Part shown: positions 14,798 to 64,000 of the stretch, one piece after another | Layout: the number at the start of each line of letters is the position of its first letter | Numbering within the stretch: position 1 is the stretch's first letter | Source: Actinomyces sp. oral taxon 897 | GTDB taxonomy: Bacteria; Actinomycetota; Actinomycetes; Actinomycetales; Actinomycetaceae | DNA: 64,000 bases | Direction: 5' to 3' | Assembly (NCBI RefSeq): GCF_002999235.1 | Contig: NZ_CP027236.1 | Location: 62,001 to 126,000, forward strand | Position numbers and translations under genes: made by a program | The notes under the pieces: generated by a model | The model's input: only the letters and a program-made list of their open reading frames with translations | What the model was told of the DNA's origin: nothing | Databases searched by the model: none

Positions 14798-14858
14798 CGC
14801 GAGAACGGTACTTGTTCGTCGCGAGAACGGTACTTGTTCGTCGTGAGAACGGGGCACC
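14798..14858. repeat. 22-bp repeat triplet, locus A
   Basis: GAGAACGG begins at 14801, 14823 and 14845, an exact 22-bp period. Units 1 and 2 are identical (CGCGAGAACGGTACTTGTTC plus GT); unit 3 is cut short after GAGAACGGGG. The triplet starts 3 bp behind the corrected adnB stop. The same family occurs at 22095 and 57935, again with three units. Confidence 0.92.
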
Positions 14859-22065: not shown

Positions 22066-22094
22066 GCCGGGGCGCCTGGCGGCACTGCCTCCGT

Positions 22095-22155
22095 CGCGAG
22101 AACGGTACTTGTTCTTCGTGAGAACGGTACTTATTGCTCGTGAGAACGGTACCGT
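22095..22155. repeat. 22-bp repeat triplet, locus B
   Basis: GAGAACGGTAC begins at 22098, 22120 and 22142, again exactly 22 bp apart. Unit bodies differ slightly after GGTACTT (GTTCTTCG, ATTGCTCG). The third unit ends in CGTCGG. It lies 30 bp behind the corrected stop of the tadG-like gene and 30 bp before the convergent minus-strand gene. Confidence 0.92.
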
Positions 22156-27138: not shown

Positions 27139-28821
27139 GTGGCTGAGTACATCTACCAGATGGTCAAGGCGCGCAAGGCCCACGGCGACAAGGTCATCCT
27201 CGACGACGTCACCATGGCCTTCCTGCCCGGCGCCAAGATCGGCATGGTCGGCCCCAACGGCGCCGGCAAGTCCTCCATCCTCAAGATCATGGCCGGCATT
27301 GACCAGCCCTCCAACGGCGAGGCCCGTCTGAGCCCCGGCTACAGCGTCGGCATCCTCCTCCAGGAGCCACCCCTTAATGAGGACAAGACGGTGCTCGGCA
27401 ACGTCGAGGAGGGCGTGGCCGTGATCAAGTCCAAGCTGGACCGCTTCAACGAGATCTCCGCCCTCATGGCCGAGCCCGACGCAGACTTCGACACCCTCCT
27501 GGCCGAGATGGGCACCCTCCAGGACGCCCTGGACGCCGCGAACGCCTGGGACCTGGACTCCCAGCTGGAGCAGGCCATGGACGCCCTGCGCTGCCCCCCG
27601 CCGGACGCCCAGGTGGCGCACCTCTCCGGTGGTGAGCGCCGCCGCGTCGCCCTGTGCAAGCTTCTCCTCCAGGCCCCCGACCTGCTCCTGCTGGACGAGC
27701 CCACCAACCACCTCGACGCCGAGAGCGTCCTGTGGCTGGAGCAGCACCTGGCCAGCTACAAGGGCGCCGTTATCGCCGTCACCCACGACCGCTACTTCCT
27801 GGACCACGTGGCCCAGTGGATCGCCGAGGTCGACCGCGGCCACCTCTACCCCTACGAGGGCAACTACTCCACCTACCTGGAGACCAAGGAGAAGCGCCTG
27901 GAGGTCCAGGGCAAGAAGGACGCCAAGCTCGCCAAGCGCCTCAAGGAGGAGCTGGAGTGGGTGCGCTCCTCGGCCAAGGGCCGTCAGGCCAAGTCCAAGG
28001 CCCGTCTGGCCCGCTACGAGGAGATGGCCGCCGAGGCCGAGCGCACCCGCAAGCTCGACTTTGAGGAGATCCAGATTCCGCCGGGCCCGCGCCTGGGGAA
28101 CACGGTGCTCGAGGCCAGCCACCTGCGCAAGGGATTTGACGGGCGCACCCTTATTGACGACTTGTCCTTCACTCTGCCGCGCAACGGCATTATCGGCGTC
28201 GTCGGCCCCAATGGCGTGGGTAAGACCACCCTGTTCAAGACCATTGTGGGCCTGGAGGAGCTCGACGGCGGCACCCTCAAGGTCGGCCAGACCGTCAAGC
28301 TGTCCTACGTGGACCAGACCCGCGCCGGGATCGACCCCAGGAAGACCCTGTGGGAGGTCGTCTCCGACGGCCTGGACTACATTAAGGTCGGCAACGTGGA
28401 GATGCCCTCACGCGCCTACGTGGCCTCCTTCGGCTTCAAGGGCGCCGACCAGCAGAAGCCCGCCGGGGTGCTCTCCGGCGGGGAGCGCAACCGCCTCAAC
28501 CTGGCCCTGACCCTCAAGCAGGGCGGCAACCTCATCCTCCTGGACGAGCCCACCAACGACCTGGACGTGGAGACCCTGGGCTCCCTGGAGAAGGCGCTCC
28601 TGGAGTTCCCCGGCTGCGCCGTGGTCATTACCCACGACCGCTGGTTCCTGGACCGCGTGGCCACCCACATCCTGGCCTGGGAGGGCACGGAGGAGAACCC
28701 GGCCAGCTGGTACTGGTTCGAGGGCAACTTCGCCTCCTACGAGGAGAACAAGGTCAAGCGCCTGGGCGCCGAGGCCGCCCGCCCCCACCGCGTCACCTAC
28801 CGCAAGCTCACACGCGATTGA
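27139..28821 (+). CDS. ettA: Energy-dependent translational throttle protein EttA (ABC-F)
   Basis: 560 residues with two ABC domains and no membrane helices. The first Walker A is GPNGAGKS (38-45) with LSGGERRRVAL and LLLLDEPTNHLD. The inter-domain linker carries the arm and P-site tRNA-interaction motif (KRLKEELEWVRSSAKGRQAK). The second Walker A is GPNGVGKT with LSGGERNRLNLAL and LILLDEPTNDLD. EttA binds the ribosomal E site and gates the first elongation step according to energy state. It ends in HRVTYRKLTRD, the common actinobacterial C-terminus. GTG start. A hairpin-repeat array begins at the stop codon. Confidence 0.95.
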   Translation: MAEYIYQMVKARKAHGDKVILDDVTMAFLPGAKIGMVGPNGAGKSSILKIMAGIDQPSNGEARLSPGYSVGILLQEPPLNEDKTVLGNVEEGVAVIKSKLDRFNEISALMAEPDADFDTLLAEMGTLQDALDAANAWDLDSQLEQAMDALRCPPPDAQVAHLSGGERRRVALCKLLLQAPDLLLLDEPTNHLDAESVLWLEQHLASYKGAVIAVTHDRYFLDHVAQWIAEVDRGHLYPYEGNYSTYLETKEKRLEVQGKKDAKLAKRLKEELEWVRSSAKGRQAKSKARLARYEEMAAEAERTRKLDFEEIQIPPGPRLGNTVLEASHLRKGFDGRTLIDDLSFTLPRNGIIGVVGPNGVGKTTLFKTIVGLEELDGGTLKVGQTVKLSYVDQTRAGIDPRKTLWEVVSDGLDYIKVGNVEMPSRAYVASFGFKGADQQKPAGVLSGGERNRLNLALTLKQGGNLILLDEPTNDLDVETLGSLEKALLEFPGCAVVITHDRWFLDRVATHILAWEGTEENPASWYWFEGNFASYEENKVKRLGAEAARPHRVTYRKLTRD

Positions 28822-29185
28822 GCCGAGTGAAGCCGAGCTTGCTCGAGCTTCCGAGGCGATTGAGCGTGTTGGAGGCGGGGCCGAGCACACGCGATTGAGC
28901 CGAAGGCCAAGGCCGCTCGCGGTCTTGGCTGAGGCGATTGAGCGTGTTGGAGGCGGAGCCGAACACGCGCCGATTGAGCCGAGTGAAGCCGAGCTTGCTC
29001 GGGCTTCCGAGGCGATTGAGCGTGTTGGAGGCCGCAGGCTGAACACACGTCGATTGAGCCGAGTGAAGCCGAGCTTGCTCGAACTTCCGAGGCGATTGAG
29101 CGTGTTGGAGGCGGAGCCGAGCACACGTCGATTGAGCCGAGTGAAGCCGCGAGCGGCCCTGGACGGCCGCAGGCCGTAGCCGGGG
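28815..29185. repeat. Composite array of two alternating hairpin repeats behind ettA
   Basis: CGATTGAGC occurs nine times (28815, 28857, 28892, 28935, 28971, 29013, 29051, 29093, 29129), alternately separated by a 42-bp and a 36-bp block, giving a composite period of 77-80 bp. The longer block (type A) folds as a hairpin with arms such as GAAGCCGAGC; the shorter one (type B) as GTGTT...AACAC with an inner GGC/GCC stem. Copies vary but still pair. The ettA TGA lies inside the first CGATTGAGC. The rest of gap 28822-29561 (from 29186) is moderately AT-rich and holds no recognised gene. Confidence 0.93.
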
Positions 29186-56835: not shown

Positions 56836-57873
56836 GTGCCCGAGGGACACACCGTCCACCGTCTGGCCTCCGCGCTCACCGAGCTCTACGGCGGGCAGCG
56901 CCTGCGCGCCTGCTCGCCCCAGGGCCGCTTCGCCGCCGGGGCGCAGCGCCTTGACGGCCAGGTGCTCCTGGGCGCCCAGGCGCACGGCAAGCACCTCTTC
57001 GTGGCCTTCGCCCCCCGGGCGGACGCGGACCCGCAGGATCCGGATGTCACCTGGCTGCGCGTCCACCTGGGCCTGTACGGCTCCTGGTCCTTCGACGGCG
57101 ACGCGGAGTTCACCGCCCCGCACTCCATCGGGGCGCCCCGGCGCAGGGTGGGGGAGCGCGGGGAGCACGCCCTGCCCTCTGCCGGCGGGCGCGGGCGCAG
57201 CGGGGGCTCGGCCCTGTCCGGGCTGCGCGGCGGGCAGGAGGCCGCTGGCACCGCGGCGGACGGCGGCACCGCGGCGGGACCCGTGGCGGCCCCGCCCGCC
57301 GGGCAGTGGGTCCCGCCTGCTCCCCGTGGGGCCGTGCGGCTCAGGCTCCTGGGTGAGCACGGGGTGGCCGACCTGACCGGCCCGGCGGCCTGCGAGCTCC
57401 TGGACGCCGACGGCGTGGCCGCGGTGCACGCCCGCCTCGGGCCGGACCCCCTGCGCGCGGACGGGGACGTGGAGGCCTTCGTGGAGGGGGTGCGACGGCG
57501 TCGCAAGGACATTGGTGAGCTCCTCATGGACCAGTCCGTCCTGGCCGGGGCGGGCAATATCTACCGCGCCGAGACCCTGTTCCGGGTGGGGGTGAGCCCC
57601 TTCCGCCCCGGCAGCGCCGTCTCCGCCAGGAGGCTGCGGGCCATCTGGGAGGACCTGGTCCCGCTCATGGAGTACGGGGTTGCCACCGGCTTTATCACCA
57701 CCGTGGACGAGGCCGACGTTCCCGACCCCCTGCCTGAGGGGGACCAGGAGGCGGCGCGCTGGTACGTCTACCACCGCACCGGCCGCCCCTGTCTGCGCTG
57801 CGCCACCCCGGTGGCGGCCAAGGACGTCGCCGGACGGCGCCTCTTCTGGTGCCCCCGCTGCCAGGCCCGCTGA
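56836..57873 (+). CDS. nei: DNA glycosylase, Fpg/Nei family (endonuclease VIII-like)
   Basis: 345 residues. Pro2-Glu3 (MPEGHTVHRLA) form the catalytic N-terminus, Lys52 (HGKHLFV) is the conserved lysine, and DQSVLAGAGNIYRAE is the helix-two-turn-helix. A C-terminal zinc finger (CLRC, then CPRC) completes the fold. It removes oxidised bases and nicks the strand. Residues of about 100-160 hold a Gly/Ala/Ser-rich insertion between strands that is unusually long. GTG start; no strong ribosome site, probably coupled to rpiB. Confidence 0.93.
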   Translation: MPEGHTVHRLASALTELYGGQRLRACSPQGRFAAGAQRLDGQVLLGAQAHGKHLFVAFAPRADADPQDPDVTWLRVHLGLYGSWSFDGDAEFTAPHSIGAPRRRVGERGEHALPSAGGRGRSGGSALSGLRGGQEAAGTAADGGTAAGPVAAPPAGQWVPPAPRGAVRLRLLGEHGVADLTGPAACELLDADGVAAVHARLGPDPLRADGDVEAFVEGVRRRRKDIGELLMDQSVLAGAGNIYRAETLFRVGVSPFRPGSAVSARRLRAIWEDLVPLMEYGVATGFITTVDEADVPDPLPEGDQEAARWYVYHRTGRPCLRCATPVAAKDVAGRRLFWCPRCQAR

Positions 57874-57934
57874 TCAGTTGCCAGACCCGCTGACCGGTCC
57901 GGCGGTAGACGGCGCCCCGCCCGCCTCTCTGGTT

Positions 57935-57995
57935 CGTGAGAACGGTACTTATTGCTCGCGAGAACGGTACTTGTTTGCCGCGAGAACGGGGGGTG
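57935..57995. repeat. 22-bp repeat triplet, locus C
   Basis: GAGAACGG begins at 57938, 57960 and 57982, again at an exact 22-bp period. Unit 1 ends ATTGCTCG as in locus B; unit 3 breaks off after GAGAACGGGG as in locus A. It lies 62 bp behind the nei stop. Confidence 0.92.
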
Positions 57996-58162
57996 CTTGC
58001 AGTGGTCCTGTCTGGGCTGGTTGGTGGGTGCGCCGGGTGGTCTTCTCGGTGTGCTCGTCTTCTGGGCGTGCTGTCCGCGTGGTGCCGGGGATGGCGGGGC
58101 GGGCTCGTCCCGGGAGACGCCGGGCCCGTCTGCTCTGCCGGTGCGCCCGCGCGCCGGACCGA

Positions 58163-58360
58163 GTGGAGGTGAACGCGCTCTGGGGCAGGTAGACGCCATA
58201 TCACGGGAATAAACGCGCTTTCGTGCTGGTGAACGCTAGCTTGAATGGCGTTCACCTGACCAAAAGCACGTTCATCTACCTCAAGACACGTTCACCCGAC
58301 TCAGAGCGCGTTTACCAACATCGGGACACGTTCACCTACACAAAAGCGCGTTCACCTGGG
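58163..58360. repeat. Phased 20-bp inverted repeat array (ten sites)
   Basis: GGTGAACG or close variants begin at 58168, 58188, 58208 and 58228; the reverse form CGTTCACC or variants begins at 58249, 58269, 58289, 58309, 58329 and 58349. Spacing is exactly 20 bp within each half. The core is GGTGAACGCGC with a looser CTTTTG flank. The two halves face each other across 13 bp, so the transcript could fold into one long hairpin. Gap 57874-58680 contains this array, locus C and a possible small frame at 58439. Confidence 0.93.
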
Positions 58361-58438
58361 GGTGCGCGAGCCCAGCTACCCGGTGCCCGCACGCCCGACA
58401 AGCAGCCTGCTGCGCAAGCAAGAGGGGGCAGTGCCTCT

Positions 58439-58627
58439 GTGGAGGCCCCGTACGCGCACTCGGGGACGCTCGATGAATGCGAGGCCGTCTGGGTGCCCGG
58501 CACGCACGCGCACTGGGAGTGGTCAGAGATGGTCGAGGTGGTCCTCTTCGACCTGCTTCCCCACCCCGTGCACCCAGGAGCGGTGGAGGCCATCACGCCC
58601 GCCGGGAGCGGGGGCGTGCCGGGGTGA
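58439..58627 (+). CDS. Possible small gene or gene remnant
   Basis: 62 codons from a GTG, with strongly GC-biased third positions as in real genes of this window. The peptide (TLDECEAVWVPGTHAHWEWS, then VEVVLFDLLPHPVHPGAVEA) is not recognised. A GAGGGGG lies about 10 bp upstream. It may be the end of a degraded gene whose front was replaced by the repeat array. Confidence 0.28.
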   Translation: MEAPYAHSGTLDECEAVWVPGTHAHWEWSEMVEVVLFDLLPHPVHPGAVEAITPAGSGGVPG

Positions 58628-58680
58628 GACGAGGATGCTGTCTGGCACGCCCGCCGGGAGCGGTCGTCTAGAGTGCGCTC

Positions 58681-59970
58681 ATGACCACACCCCTGAGCAC
58701 CACCGCCTGGTCGGCCGCCACCGCTGGTCTGCTCACCCGCGACCACCGCCTGACCGTCCCCCTGGACCGTAGCGGGGCCGGGGACCGGGCGCCCGACGGT
58801 AGGACCACCATCACCGTCTACGCCCGGGAGGTCGCGTGCGCGGGGGCCGACCCGCTGAGCAGGCCACCACTGGTCTTCCTCCAGGGCGGTCCCGGGTTCG
58901 AGGCCCCCCGCCCCAGCCCCGACGCCGGCCTGGGCTGGGTGGGCGCCCTGCTGGAGCACTACCGTCTCATCCTCATCGACCAGCGCGGTACTGGCGCCTC
59001 CACCCCCGTTGACCACCCCGACGCCGCAGGGGACGCGGCCGCCACCGCCCGCCTGCTCACCCACCTGCGTGCCGACGAGATCGTCGAGGACTGCGAGGAC
59101 CTGCGCCGTGCCCTGGGCCTGGAGCGCTGGAGCGTCCTAGGGCAGTCCTTCGGCGGCTTCTGCACCACCCGCTACCTGTCAGCCCACGCCTCCAGCCTGG
59201 AGCAGGCCTACCTCACCGGGGGCCTGCCCGCCGTCGGGCACGGCATCGAGGAGGTCTACGCCCTGACCTACGAGGCCATGCGGGTCAGGAGCGAGGAGTA
59301 CTACGACCGCTACCCCACTGACCGGGACCGTGTGGCCGCCCTCATGGAGGCTGCTGGGCGCGGGGAGGTCCTCACCCCGGGCGGGCACCCGGTGGGTCCC
59401 GAGCGCCTGCGCGGCGTCGGCATCTGCCTGGGTGCCAGCGGCGGCATGGACTCCCTGCACCACTTCCTGGAGGCCGACCCCGCCTCGGCACGCTTCCGCC
59501 ACGACCTGGCCGGGATGCTGCCCTTCAGCGCCCGCAACCCGCTGTACGCCGTCGTCCACGAGTCCTGCTGGGCCGACGGCGGGGTCAGCGCCTGGGCCGC
59601 TGAGCGCACCCTCCCGGCAGAGTTCGACGACGACCCCACCCTGCTCACCGGCGAGCACGTCAGCCACGCCCACCTGGCTGAGGACCCCCTGCTGGCCCCC
59701 TGGCTGGAGGTGGCCGACCTCCTGGCCGGGCACGAGTGGCCCCGCCTGTACGATCCGGTCGCCCTGCGCTCCACCCGGGTGCGTGGGGCGGCGGCCGTCT
59801 ACGCGCGCGACGTCTTCGTGCCCATGGTCTACTCCCTCCAGACCGCCGCCCTCGTACCAGGGCTGAGGACCTGGGTGACCAGCGAGTACGAGCACAACGG
59901 CTCACGGGCCTCCGGCGGGGCCGTCTTCACCCGCCTGCACGCCCTGGCCACGGGCGCCGTCGTCCGCTGA
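58681..59970 (+). CDS. Alpha/beta hydrolase, proline iminopeptidase family (S33)
   Basis: 429 residues. The oxyanion-hole segment FLQGGPGF (67-74), the DQRGTG strand (100-105) and nucleophile elbow GQSFGG with Ser156 identify the prolyl aminopeptidase branch, which releases N-terminal proline. The cap domain and the C-terminal WVTSEYEHNGSR with the expected catalytic His follow. Length matches the longer actinobacterial members. The gene stands alone between two repeat-filled gaps. Confidence 0.88.
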   Translation: MTTPLSTTAWSAATAGLLTRDHRLTVPLDRSGAGDRAPDGRTTITVYAREVACAGADPLSRPPLVFLQGGPGFEAPRPSPDAGLGWVGALLEHYRLILIDQRGTGASTPVDHPDAAGDAAATARLLTHLRADEIVEDCEDLRRALGLERWSVLGQSFGGFCTTRYLSAHASSLEQAYLTGGLPAVGHGIEEVYALTYEAMRVRSEEYYDRYPTDRDRVAALMEAAGRGEVLTPGGHPVGPERLRGVGICLGASGGMDSLHHFLEADPASARFRHDLAGMLPFSARNPLYAVVHESCWADGGVSAWAAERTLPAEFDDDPTLLTGEHVSHAHLAEDPLLAPWLEVADLLAGHEWPRLYDPVALRSTRVRGAAAVYARDVFVPMVYSLQTAALVPGLRTWVTSEYEHNGSRASGGAVFTRLHALATGAVVR

Positions 59971-63778: not shown

Positions 63779-63849
63779 GCGGGTGTAGCTCAATGGTAGA
63801 GCCTCTGCCTTCCAAGCAGATTGCGCGGGTTCGATTCCCGTCACCCGCT
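63779..63849 (+). tRNA. tRNA-Gly (anticodon TCC)
   Basis: 71 bases fold into a full cloverleaf: acceptor GCGGGTG with CACCCGC, D arm with AGCTCAATGGTAGAGC, anticodon loop CTTCCAA giving TCC, and T arm GCGGGTTCGATTCCCGT. The discriminator is T, and CCA is not encoded. It reads GGA and GGG codons. It lies 35 bp behind rpmF. Confidence 0.96.
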
Positions 63850-63898
63850 CTGAGCAGCCCAGGGCCACCGGGTGTCCTGGTGGTCCTGGGTGCCTATA

Positions 63899-63972
63899 CG
63901 GGGTGTGGCGTAGCTTGGTAGCGCGCCTGCTTTGGGAGCAGGAGATCGTGGGTTCAAATCCCGCCACCCCGA
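63899..63972 (+). tRNA. tRNA-Pro (anticodon TGG)
   Basis: 74 bases: acceptor CGGGGTG with CACCCCG, D arm GTAGCTTGGTAGC, anticodon loop TTTGGGA giving TGG, and T arm GTGGGTTCAAATCCCGC. The discriminator is A and CCA is not encoded. The first base C opposite a final G is typical of bacterial tRNA-Pro. It is 49 bp behind tRNA-Gly and probably co-transcribed. Confidence 0.96.
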
Positions 63973-64000
63973 CTGCTTTACACGCTTGCCCGGATAAACC

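Follow-up and report, generated by a model that had tools for sequence, protein, structure and literature searches.

Mirror-symmetric arrays of sites phased at 20 bp: a candidate REP-like, lineage-private repeat in Actinomyces sp. oral taxon 897

Arrays of short DNA sites, phased at 20 bp and arranged in two facing arms, recur across the genome of Actinomyces sp. oral taxon 897. The first was found at positions 58163..58360 of a 64,000-nucleotide stretch of this genome (the window). Our preferred reading, to which we give a probability of roughly one half, is that the arrays are a dispersed, mirror-symmetric, mainly extragenic and lineage-private repeat of a REP-like kind, composed of phased putative protein-binding sites. 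Each copy would present short duplex sites along one DNA face, spaced by two helical turns and grouped into a pair of inverted arms that flank a fixed centre, and a putative sequence-specific oligomeric DNA-binding protein would sit side by side on the cores.

The window sequence bears out the original prediction of ten sites phased at 20 bp, four facing six. The left arm (58168..58235, minus strand) contains four GGTGAACG-type cores, which start at 58168, 58188, 58208, and 58228 and have 0, 2, 3, and 0 mismatches, respectively, to the 8-bp core. A 13-bp dyad centre, CTAGCTTGAATGG (58236..58248), separates it from the right arm (58249..58356, plus strand), where six CGTTCACC-type cores start at 58249, 58269, 58289, 58309, 58329, and 58349 with 0, 1, 0, 1, 0, and 0 mismatches. 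The step is exactly 20 bp inside either arm, and the start-to-start step over the 13-bp centre is 21. With 3 of 8 positions mismatched, the site at 58208 is degenerate; the other nine are good sites. Upstream lies a gene for an Fpg/Nei-type DNA glycosylase (56836..57873, plus strand), with H2TH, Fapy_DNA_glyco, and zf-FPG_IleRS domains, and downstream, starting 325 bp past the array, a gene for an alpha/beta hydrolase (58681..59970, plus strand), which we take to be proline iminopeptidase. About 60 bp past the stop codon of the upstream gene there is a second, one-armed array with a 22-bp step (57934..57989, plus strand), made up of two copies of GAGAACGGTACTT and a partial third, GAGAACGG. 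Elsewhere in the window, a 78-bp tandem repeat of 4.4 copies (28809-29149), whose unit seems by eye to contain inverted stretches, and adjacent tRNA-Gly(tcc) and tRNA-Pro(tgg) genes at the window end (63779-63973) were observed.

The chromosome search proposed in the original prediction gave a clear answer. The pair CGTTCACC-N12-CGTTCACC is present, with up to 2 mismatches, at 58 + 54 = 112 places in the 3.25-Mb genome, and the reversed control pattern at 0 + 0; a chance origin of the site pairs is thus excluded at genome scale. Among the 100 of these places that were listed, 17 fetched stretches plus the window yielded at least 22 arrays, with 194 sites and 2 to 9 sites per arm. Two pair places do not count among the 22 loci: 118853-118880, which lies inside the glycosylase gene, and 1509209-1509236, a lone pair. 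All 22 loci can be read as a minus arm, a 13-bp centre, and a plus arm, given that in L014, L016, L020, L022, and L024 the centre was moved one unit by hand, beside an innermost site with 3 mismatches. CTAG is found within the centre in 11 of the 22. Exceptions to the phase consist of a 1-bp slip in L018 and in L021 and outer sites that are out of phase at L010 and L017.

Across the 194 sites of the 22 loci, information content ranges from 0.74 to 1.87 bits per position in the CGTTCACC core and from 0.13 to 0.86 in the twelve-base spacer, in agreement with the predicted selection on both sites and spacing. In addition, the base directly ahead of the core reaches 1.4 bits when read as upstream flank, and the site profile contains an A-rich patch a few bases ahead of the core. 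Such a profile is that of a putative main contact together with a weaker second contact.

The arrays are mainly extragenic and dispersed. By rough GC3-based gene calls, 20 of the 22 are clear of called genes, and the array of L014 touches a gene end by 4 bp; with looser settings, two arrays overlap called frames (58223-58627 in the window and 2508-5156 in L021). Every type of intergenic space is represented, many arrays lying between tandem or divergent genes and some between converging genes. The genes that adjoin the 22 loci are, by eye, unrelated to one another. This finding does not support the single operator that had been suggested for the window array, and a dedicated regulon that includes the downstream hydrolase gene seems very unlikely. 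Phased sites on one helix face are typical of cooperative operators, and the array does lie 325 bp upstream of a gene; however, the unrelated neighbours speak against an operator array, as does the lack of any match to a sigma-70-type promoter in 57850-58700.

The arrays have also been copied as parts of longer segments. The window array and those of L012 and L018 share a composite of a 22-bp array, a linker, and a 20-bp array (57934..58356 in the window), whose pieces are 78-95% identical and which is inverted in L018. In L009 there is a tandem copy together with a related third one, with a left flank in common. Otherwise, the outer flanks vary between subfamilies and have no common tip: no 7-mer is common to more than 7 of the 44 outer flanks, these flanks show no sign of transposon tips, and no target-site duplication at the outer ends was noticed by eye in pairwise comparisons of loci, made without an empty site from the same species. 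Since the outer flanks differ and lack a common tip and long composites are shared, recent copies have moved as intergenic segments.

The core is private to this lineage. In a sample of 213 genomes of the family, 49 of them from the same genus (both counts including the present genome), pairs with at most 1 mismatch number 61 in the present genome; 31 others have one match each and 181 have none. The closest congeners, as judged by the flanking hydrolase, share 81% protein identity with it, and thus the lineage is long. Searches of viral contigs returned 19 stretches with one match each to the 20-bp pair, and the composite of L012 has no match in plasmids or phages. In genome contigs, the triple core is found at 12 loci of other organisms, including other actinobacteria and one archaeon; we read these as ordinary 20-bp minisatellites that hold the word by chance. 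Units vary in three of them (L054, L060, and L062), and at about 1850-2200 of L060 (Filobacillus milosensis) a long 20-bp phased array lies between called ORFs, its units shifting from GTGAGTGCAACAATTATTC to GGTGAACGCTCAATT. Literature searches turned up no description of such arrays in this genus.

The same design occurs in relatives with other cores. In the congener G029, the same gene pair flanks two arrays with a different core, GAACGAGAT, and this genome contains 165 GAACGAGAT-N11-GAACGAGAT pairs at up to 1 mismatch, while the other 212 genomes contain none. In the fetched G029 loci, 11 distinct two-armed arrays were counted. Each has 10-bp cores at a step of 20 bp, with single missed steps tolerated, and a 7-bp gap between the cores at its centre. 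One locus has a single arm only. When 14 genomes were scanned de novo, over 80-200 kb of each and with Markov-shuffled controls that gave 0, two-armed phased arrays emerged in four: G026 (19 bp), G028 (19 and 22 bp, with two of the four matches resembling chance palindromes), G029, and G035 (20 bp). The remaining 10 gave none, in a scan insensitive enough to miss known arrays in sampled parts of the present genome and of G023; one-armed arrays, some perhaps coding, were seen in several further scanned genomes. The reversed control pattern, absent from the present genome, has 3 + 6 = 9 matches in G029; these all trace to one dispersed element. A dispersed element of about 1.05 kb was observed in G029 at L045-L052, L111, and L119 (seven copies align over at least 1 kb and two more partly; L119 and L051 are the same place). 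By eye it seems to have long terminal inverted repeats and an IS481-type transposase-like start, and in its middle is a 19-bp two-armed array of the word GGACCAC.

Comparison of orthologous loci indicates that the arrays are additions. The gap between the glycosylase and hydrolase genes is far shorter in nine relatives, 61-193 bp, than in the present genome (about 807 bp) or in the array-bearing G029 (1257 bp). Of the 29 orthologous loci, 18 had no glycosylase gene in range and were left out of this comparison, as was L088, whose 704-bp stretch looks coding-like by eye. At another locus, compared over nine loci less L277, L289, and L291, which were not read, an array is present in G023, G041, and G033 and absent from G020.

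In sister species, transposons are lodged in such arrays. An IS481-like element of G023, whose transposase is bordered on both sides by phased 25-bp end repeats, is seated inside a 20-bp two-armed array, and its 15-bp target duplication is the centre of that array. In the IS-free ortholog of G022, the array is uninterrupted and the 15-bp centre is present once. The transposase of this one G023 element has NF033577, the NCBIfam model for IS481 transposases, as its best match (E 2.4e-60; 204.4 bits, under the curated cut-off of 224), and rve, rve_3, HTH_28, and HTH_29 are over their cut-offs. Among 44 loci of related transposases from congeners, 30 gave a duplication and 14, including L274, gave none. 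After single insertions seen repeatedly (L249/L264/L275 and L269/L329) were merged, 27 distinct insertions remained, of which 21 lie in phased arrays or palindromes. Here the subgroups are defined by the end sequences, and an insertion was assigned to an array by visual inspection of its flanks. All 11 insertions of subgroup A (G023, G003, G036, and G047) are in arrays, and 10 of them are at the dyad centre with a 14-16-bp duplication. Of these 10, 7 were placed there by a symmetry score that exceeds the 99.9th percentile for random positions and 3 by eye. L273 falls just under this threshold, L246 and L319 were called by eye after a one-base shift, and L318 is one unit off. Counting L265 of subgroup C, eight empty sites exceed the threshold. 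The 6 insertions of subgroup B (G035 and G049) all lie inside one-armed 22-bp arrays, at the same phase, although their duplication is uncertain, given that adjacent 22-bp units are alike and several copies differ by 1-2 bases. Of the 9 insertions of subgroup C, 4 are in a long palindrome or in 19-bp arrays, and for subgroup D the count is 0 of 1.

Since subgroup B uses non-palindromic arrays, the targeting is not explained by symmetry alone; a putative protein bound to the array would be one way to explain it. In the present genome itself, a search for rve-domain transposases (E up to 1e-3) and one for relatives of the G023 transposase (E 1e-10) both found nothing, and therefore the link to insertion sequences rests on sister species. 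A link to IS21 was considered and rejected: the three IstB (PF01695) matches in the present genome are partial, two being over the cut-off and none spanning the whole profile.

These transposons also give rise to the best of the rival explanations. An extinct IS481-like (or Mu/Tn7-like) element could have left the arms as binding sites of its transposase, joined as a miniature element, with the cores kept because the transposase needed them and the spacers free to drift. This is possible. The ends of the G023 element are indeed 25-bp phased direct repeats, inverted at the two ends, with a 15-bp target duplication, and the array family is lineage-private and amplified. Furthermore, in G003 a 20-bp two-armed array lies within a miniature element that has 25-bp end repeats, and the site of this element is empty in G024, which is 96% identical, as well as in the seven further sisters that were read (L298, L302, and L305 of the twelve loci were not read). 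At the same place, comparison of L296/L247 (G003) with L297 (G024) reveals a full IS481-like copy in the centre of the miniature element's array, a case of nested mobile elements. However, the conserved part of the arrays is the centre and not the outer ends; no shared terminal bases were seen, the flanks differ between subfamilies, and there are 2 to 9 sites per arm. In addition, none of 30 fetched rve loci from four congeners has two-armed arrays as its own ends. A first scan around these loci found no two-armed array at all, and a looser scan found 19-bp GGACCAC arrays in L111 and L119, which lie within about 1 kb but belong to the separate dispersed element of G029. Finally, no rve transposase is left in the present genome.

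A further proposal, which we regard as doubtful, is that of a landing pad guided by a host factor. The genus would have a quickly evolving system of chromosomal arrays, in which each lineage would have its own DNA-binding protein and matching arrays; the bound protein, rather than the word, would guide IS481-like elements to the dyad, and the 22-bp arrays that lie behind stop codons across the genus would be a second, transcription-ending branch. Were this so, the landing pad would be comparable, in bacteria, to the targeting of Tn7 to attTn7 or of yeast Ty3.

A bidirectional terminator or RNA hairpin, in which the dyad would fold from either side and end or protect transcripts, is an unlikely explanation. 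In its favour, every locus has inverted cores on both sides of the centre, converging genes flank some of the copies, and the dyad folds stably in RNA, with MFE z-scores of -1.7 to -16.2 against 15 shuffles each. A low MFE is, however, what inverted cores should give, and the genes around many of the copies are tandem or divergent. Over 64 pairs, cores at matched levels pair at 87.7%; random pairing across loci gives 87.6% (sd 0.7), and shuffling of levels inside each locus gives 86.6% (sd 0.5), about 2 sd lower. The corresponding values for spacers are 65.9%, 60.6%, and 64.8% (sd 0.8), a weak excess at matched levels. Spacers of the same level agree at 6.23 of 12 positions versus 5.94 when shuffled (p 0.011), and units of the same arm agree more, at 6.60. 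The innermost core pair scores 0.892 versus 0.869 shuffled, a value reached by 404 of 5000 shuffles and thus not significant. Nearly complementary spacers were seen by eye in some sister arrays (L249 and L278). At the window locus, no U-run terminator is called in 57850-58700, and no Rfam family matches at E 0.1. Matched change between the arms is therefore weak or absent, and the long hairpin RNA that had been suggested has weak support at most. Since the arms' changes match weakly at most, selection seems to act on single duplex sites and not on an RNA stem, and the sites seem to be mainly independent duplex sites.

A decaying minisatellite made by slippage, the alternative that the original prediction had named against itself, is hardly credible: units are tandem, some G029 arms have identical spacers, and two loci of the present genome have 1-bp slips, but the 22 loci with a common phase and centre already contradict it, as do the inversion at the 13-bp centre in 22 of 22 and spacers that are little more alike within a locus (5.8-6.6 of 12) than between loci (5.6 of 12).

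The neighbouring 22-bp triplet had been thought to be possibly of the same class. This is no more than loosely right: the triplet belongs to a separate, one-armed 22-bp family with the core GAGNNCGG, which other members of the genus have as well. The two families were copied together as a composite in three loci. At up to 3 mismatches, 298 dimers of the GAGAACGGTACTT family are present in the genome, and two more of its one-armed arrays were observed in the window (14798-14852 and 22094-22152). For 46 GAGAACGGTACTT arrays with a called upstream gene, 32 are behind a gene of the same sense and 14 are not; 29 of the 32 lie at most 82 bp from the stop codon or run into it. The same-sense position is found in 6 of 10 22-bp arrays in stretches of three other species. 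The reduced core GAGNNCGG, required three times at 22 bp, is present in 23 of the 49 genus genomes (the present one included), with at least 10 matches in 13, and absent from 26; control counts for this search ranged from 0 to 6. Viral contigs gave 0 matches to the 22-bp pair and to a shorter version of it. The 22-bp arrays look like a widespread 3'-end feature whose inner letters drift. They were also considered as ends of one mobile element and rejected, as seven pairs have no long shared outer repeat (the longest exact direct repeat is 9 bp) and as the two arrays of the pair in L012 go with two genes that converge. The present genome (L154 3944-4002, at 1.9 Mb) and G035 (L260, L270, and L322-L324) have another 22-bp word, CGAAACCGGCGGAAA, in common. 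The G035 arrays of this word have IS481-like elements inside, at the same point of the unit.

Under the preferred reading of a dispersed repeat of phased putative binding sites, the arrays would work and spread like REP/BIME elements, as intergenic platforms for a protein. They would tolerate insertions and so act as safe targets, and the core word would drift together with its putative protein, so that each lineage would come to have its own word. This reading predicts a DNA-binding protein whose specificity changed between species. It also defines a testable class of extragenic repeat, recognisable by phasing at two helical turns, a pair of inverted arms, a fixed centre, and a word private to the lineage. 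The same locus with and without an array, and with and without a transposon, offers natural experiments on how insertion sequences reach harmless sites.

Several known systems resemble the arrays in part. The rDNA Sal boxes bound by TTF-I are head-to-tail terminator sites; like them, the 22-bp arrays consist of short sites that all point one way and mostly lie directly behind genes. The ends of IS481-family elements are similar to the 20-bp arrays in that those of the G023 element are phased direct repeats in inverted orientation with a 25-bp step. The 20-bp arrays differ from these ends in core and step, lack conserved outer tips, and enclose no transposase. In iterons and phased operator arrays, short sites lie about two helical turns apart, with the cores kept and the spacers free. 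The arrays share these three features and differ in their 22 chromosomal loci and two arms around a dyad; among the neighbour proteins of the 22 loci, no replication gene or initiator was recognised by eye. In REPINs, each element pairs a short word with an inverted copy of it, and the word is lineage-private. The arrays likewise have inverted copies and a private word per lineage, although, to our knowledge, REPINs do not have multi-site phased arms. REPs are single short palindromes, which are tandem or of alternating orientation in BIMEs, whereas the arrays are two inverted multi-site arms, with a 19-22-bp step, around a fixed centre. Their copy number, at least 22 loci with 194 sites, is below the more than 100 copies per genome of REP/BIME elements, and the transposons in sister arrays are IS481-like, with 14-16-bp duplications. 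According to Tobes and Pareja (2006; PMC1525189), REP/BIME elements are extragenic palindromes with insertion sequences at fixed points, two of the reported cases being at a symmetry axis; the arrays are alike in being dispersed, extragenic, and palindromic, with insertion sequences at fixed points in sister species. We file the arrays as a variant of extragenic repeats and not as REPs.
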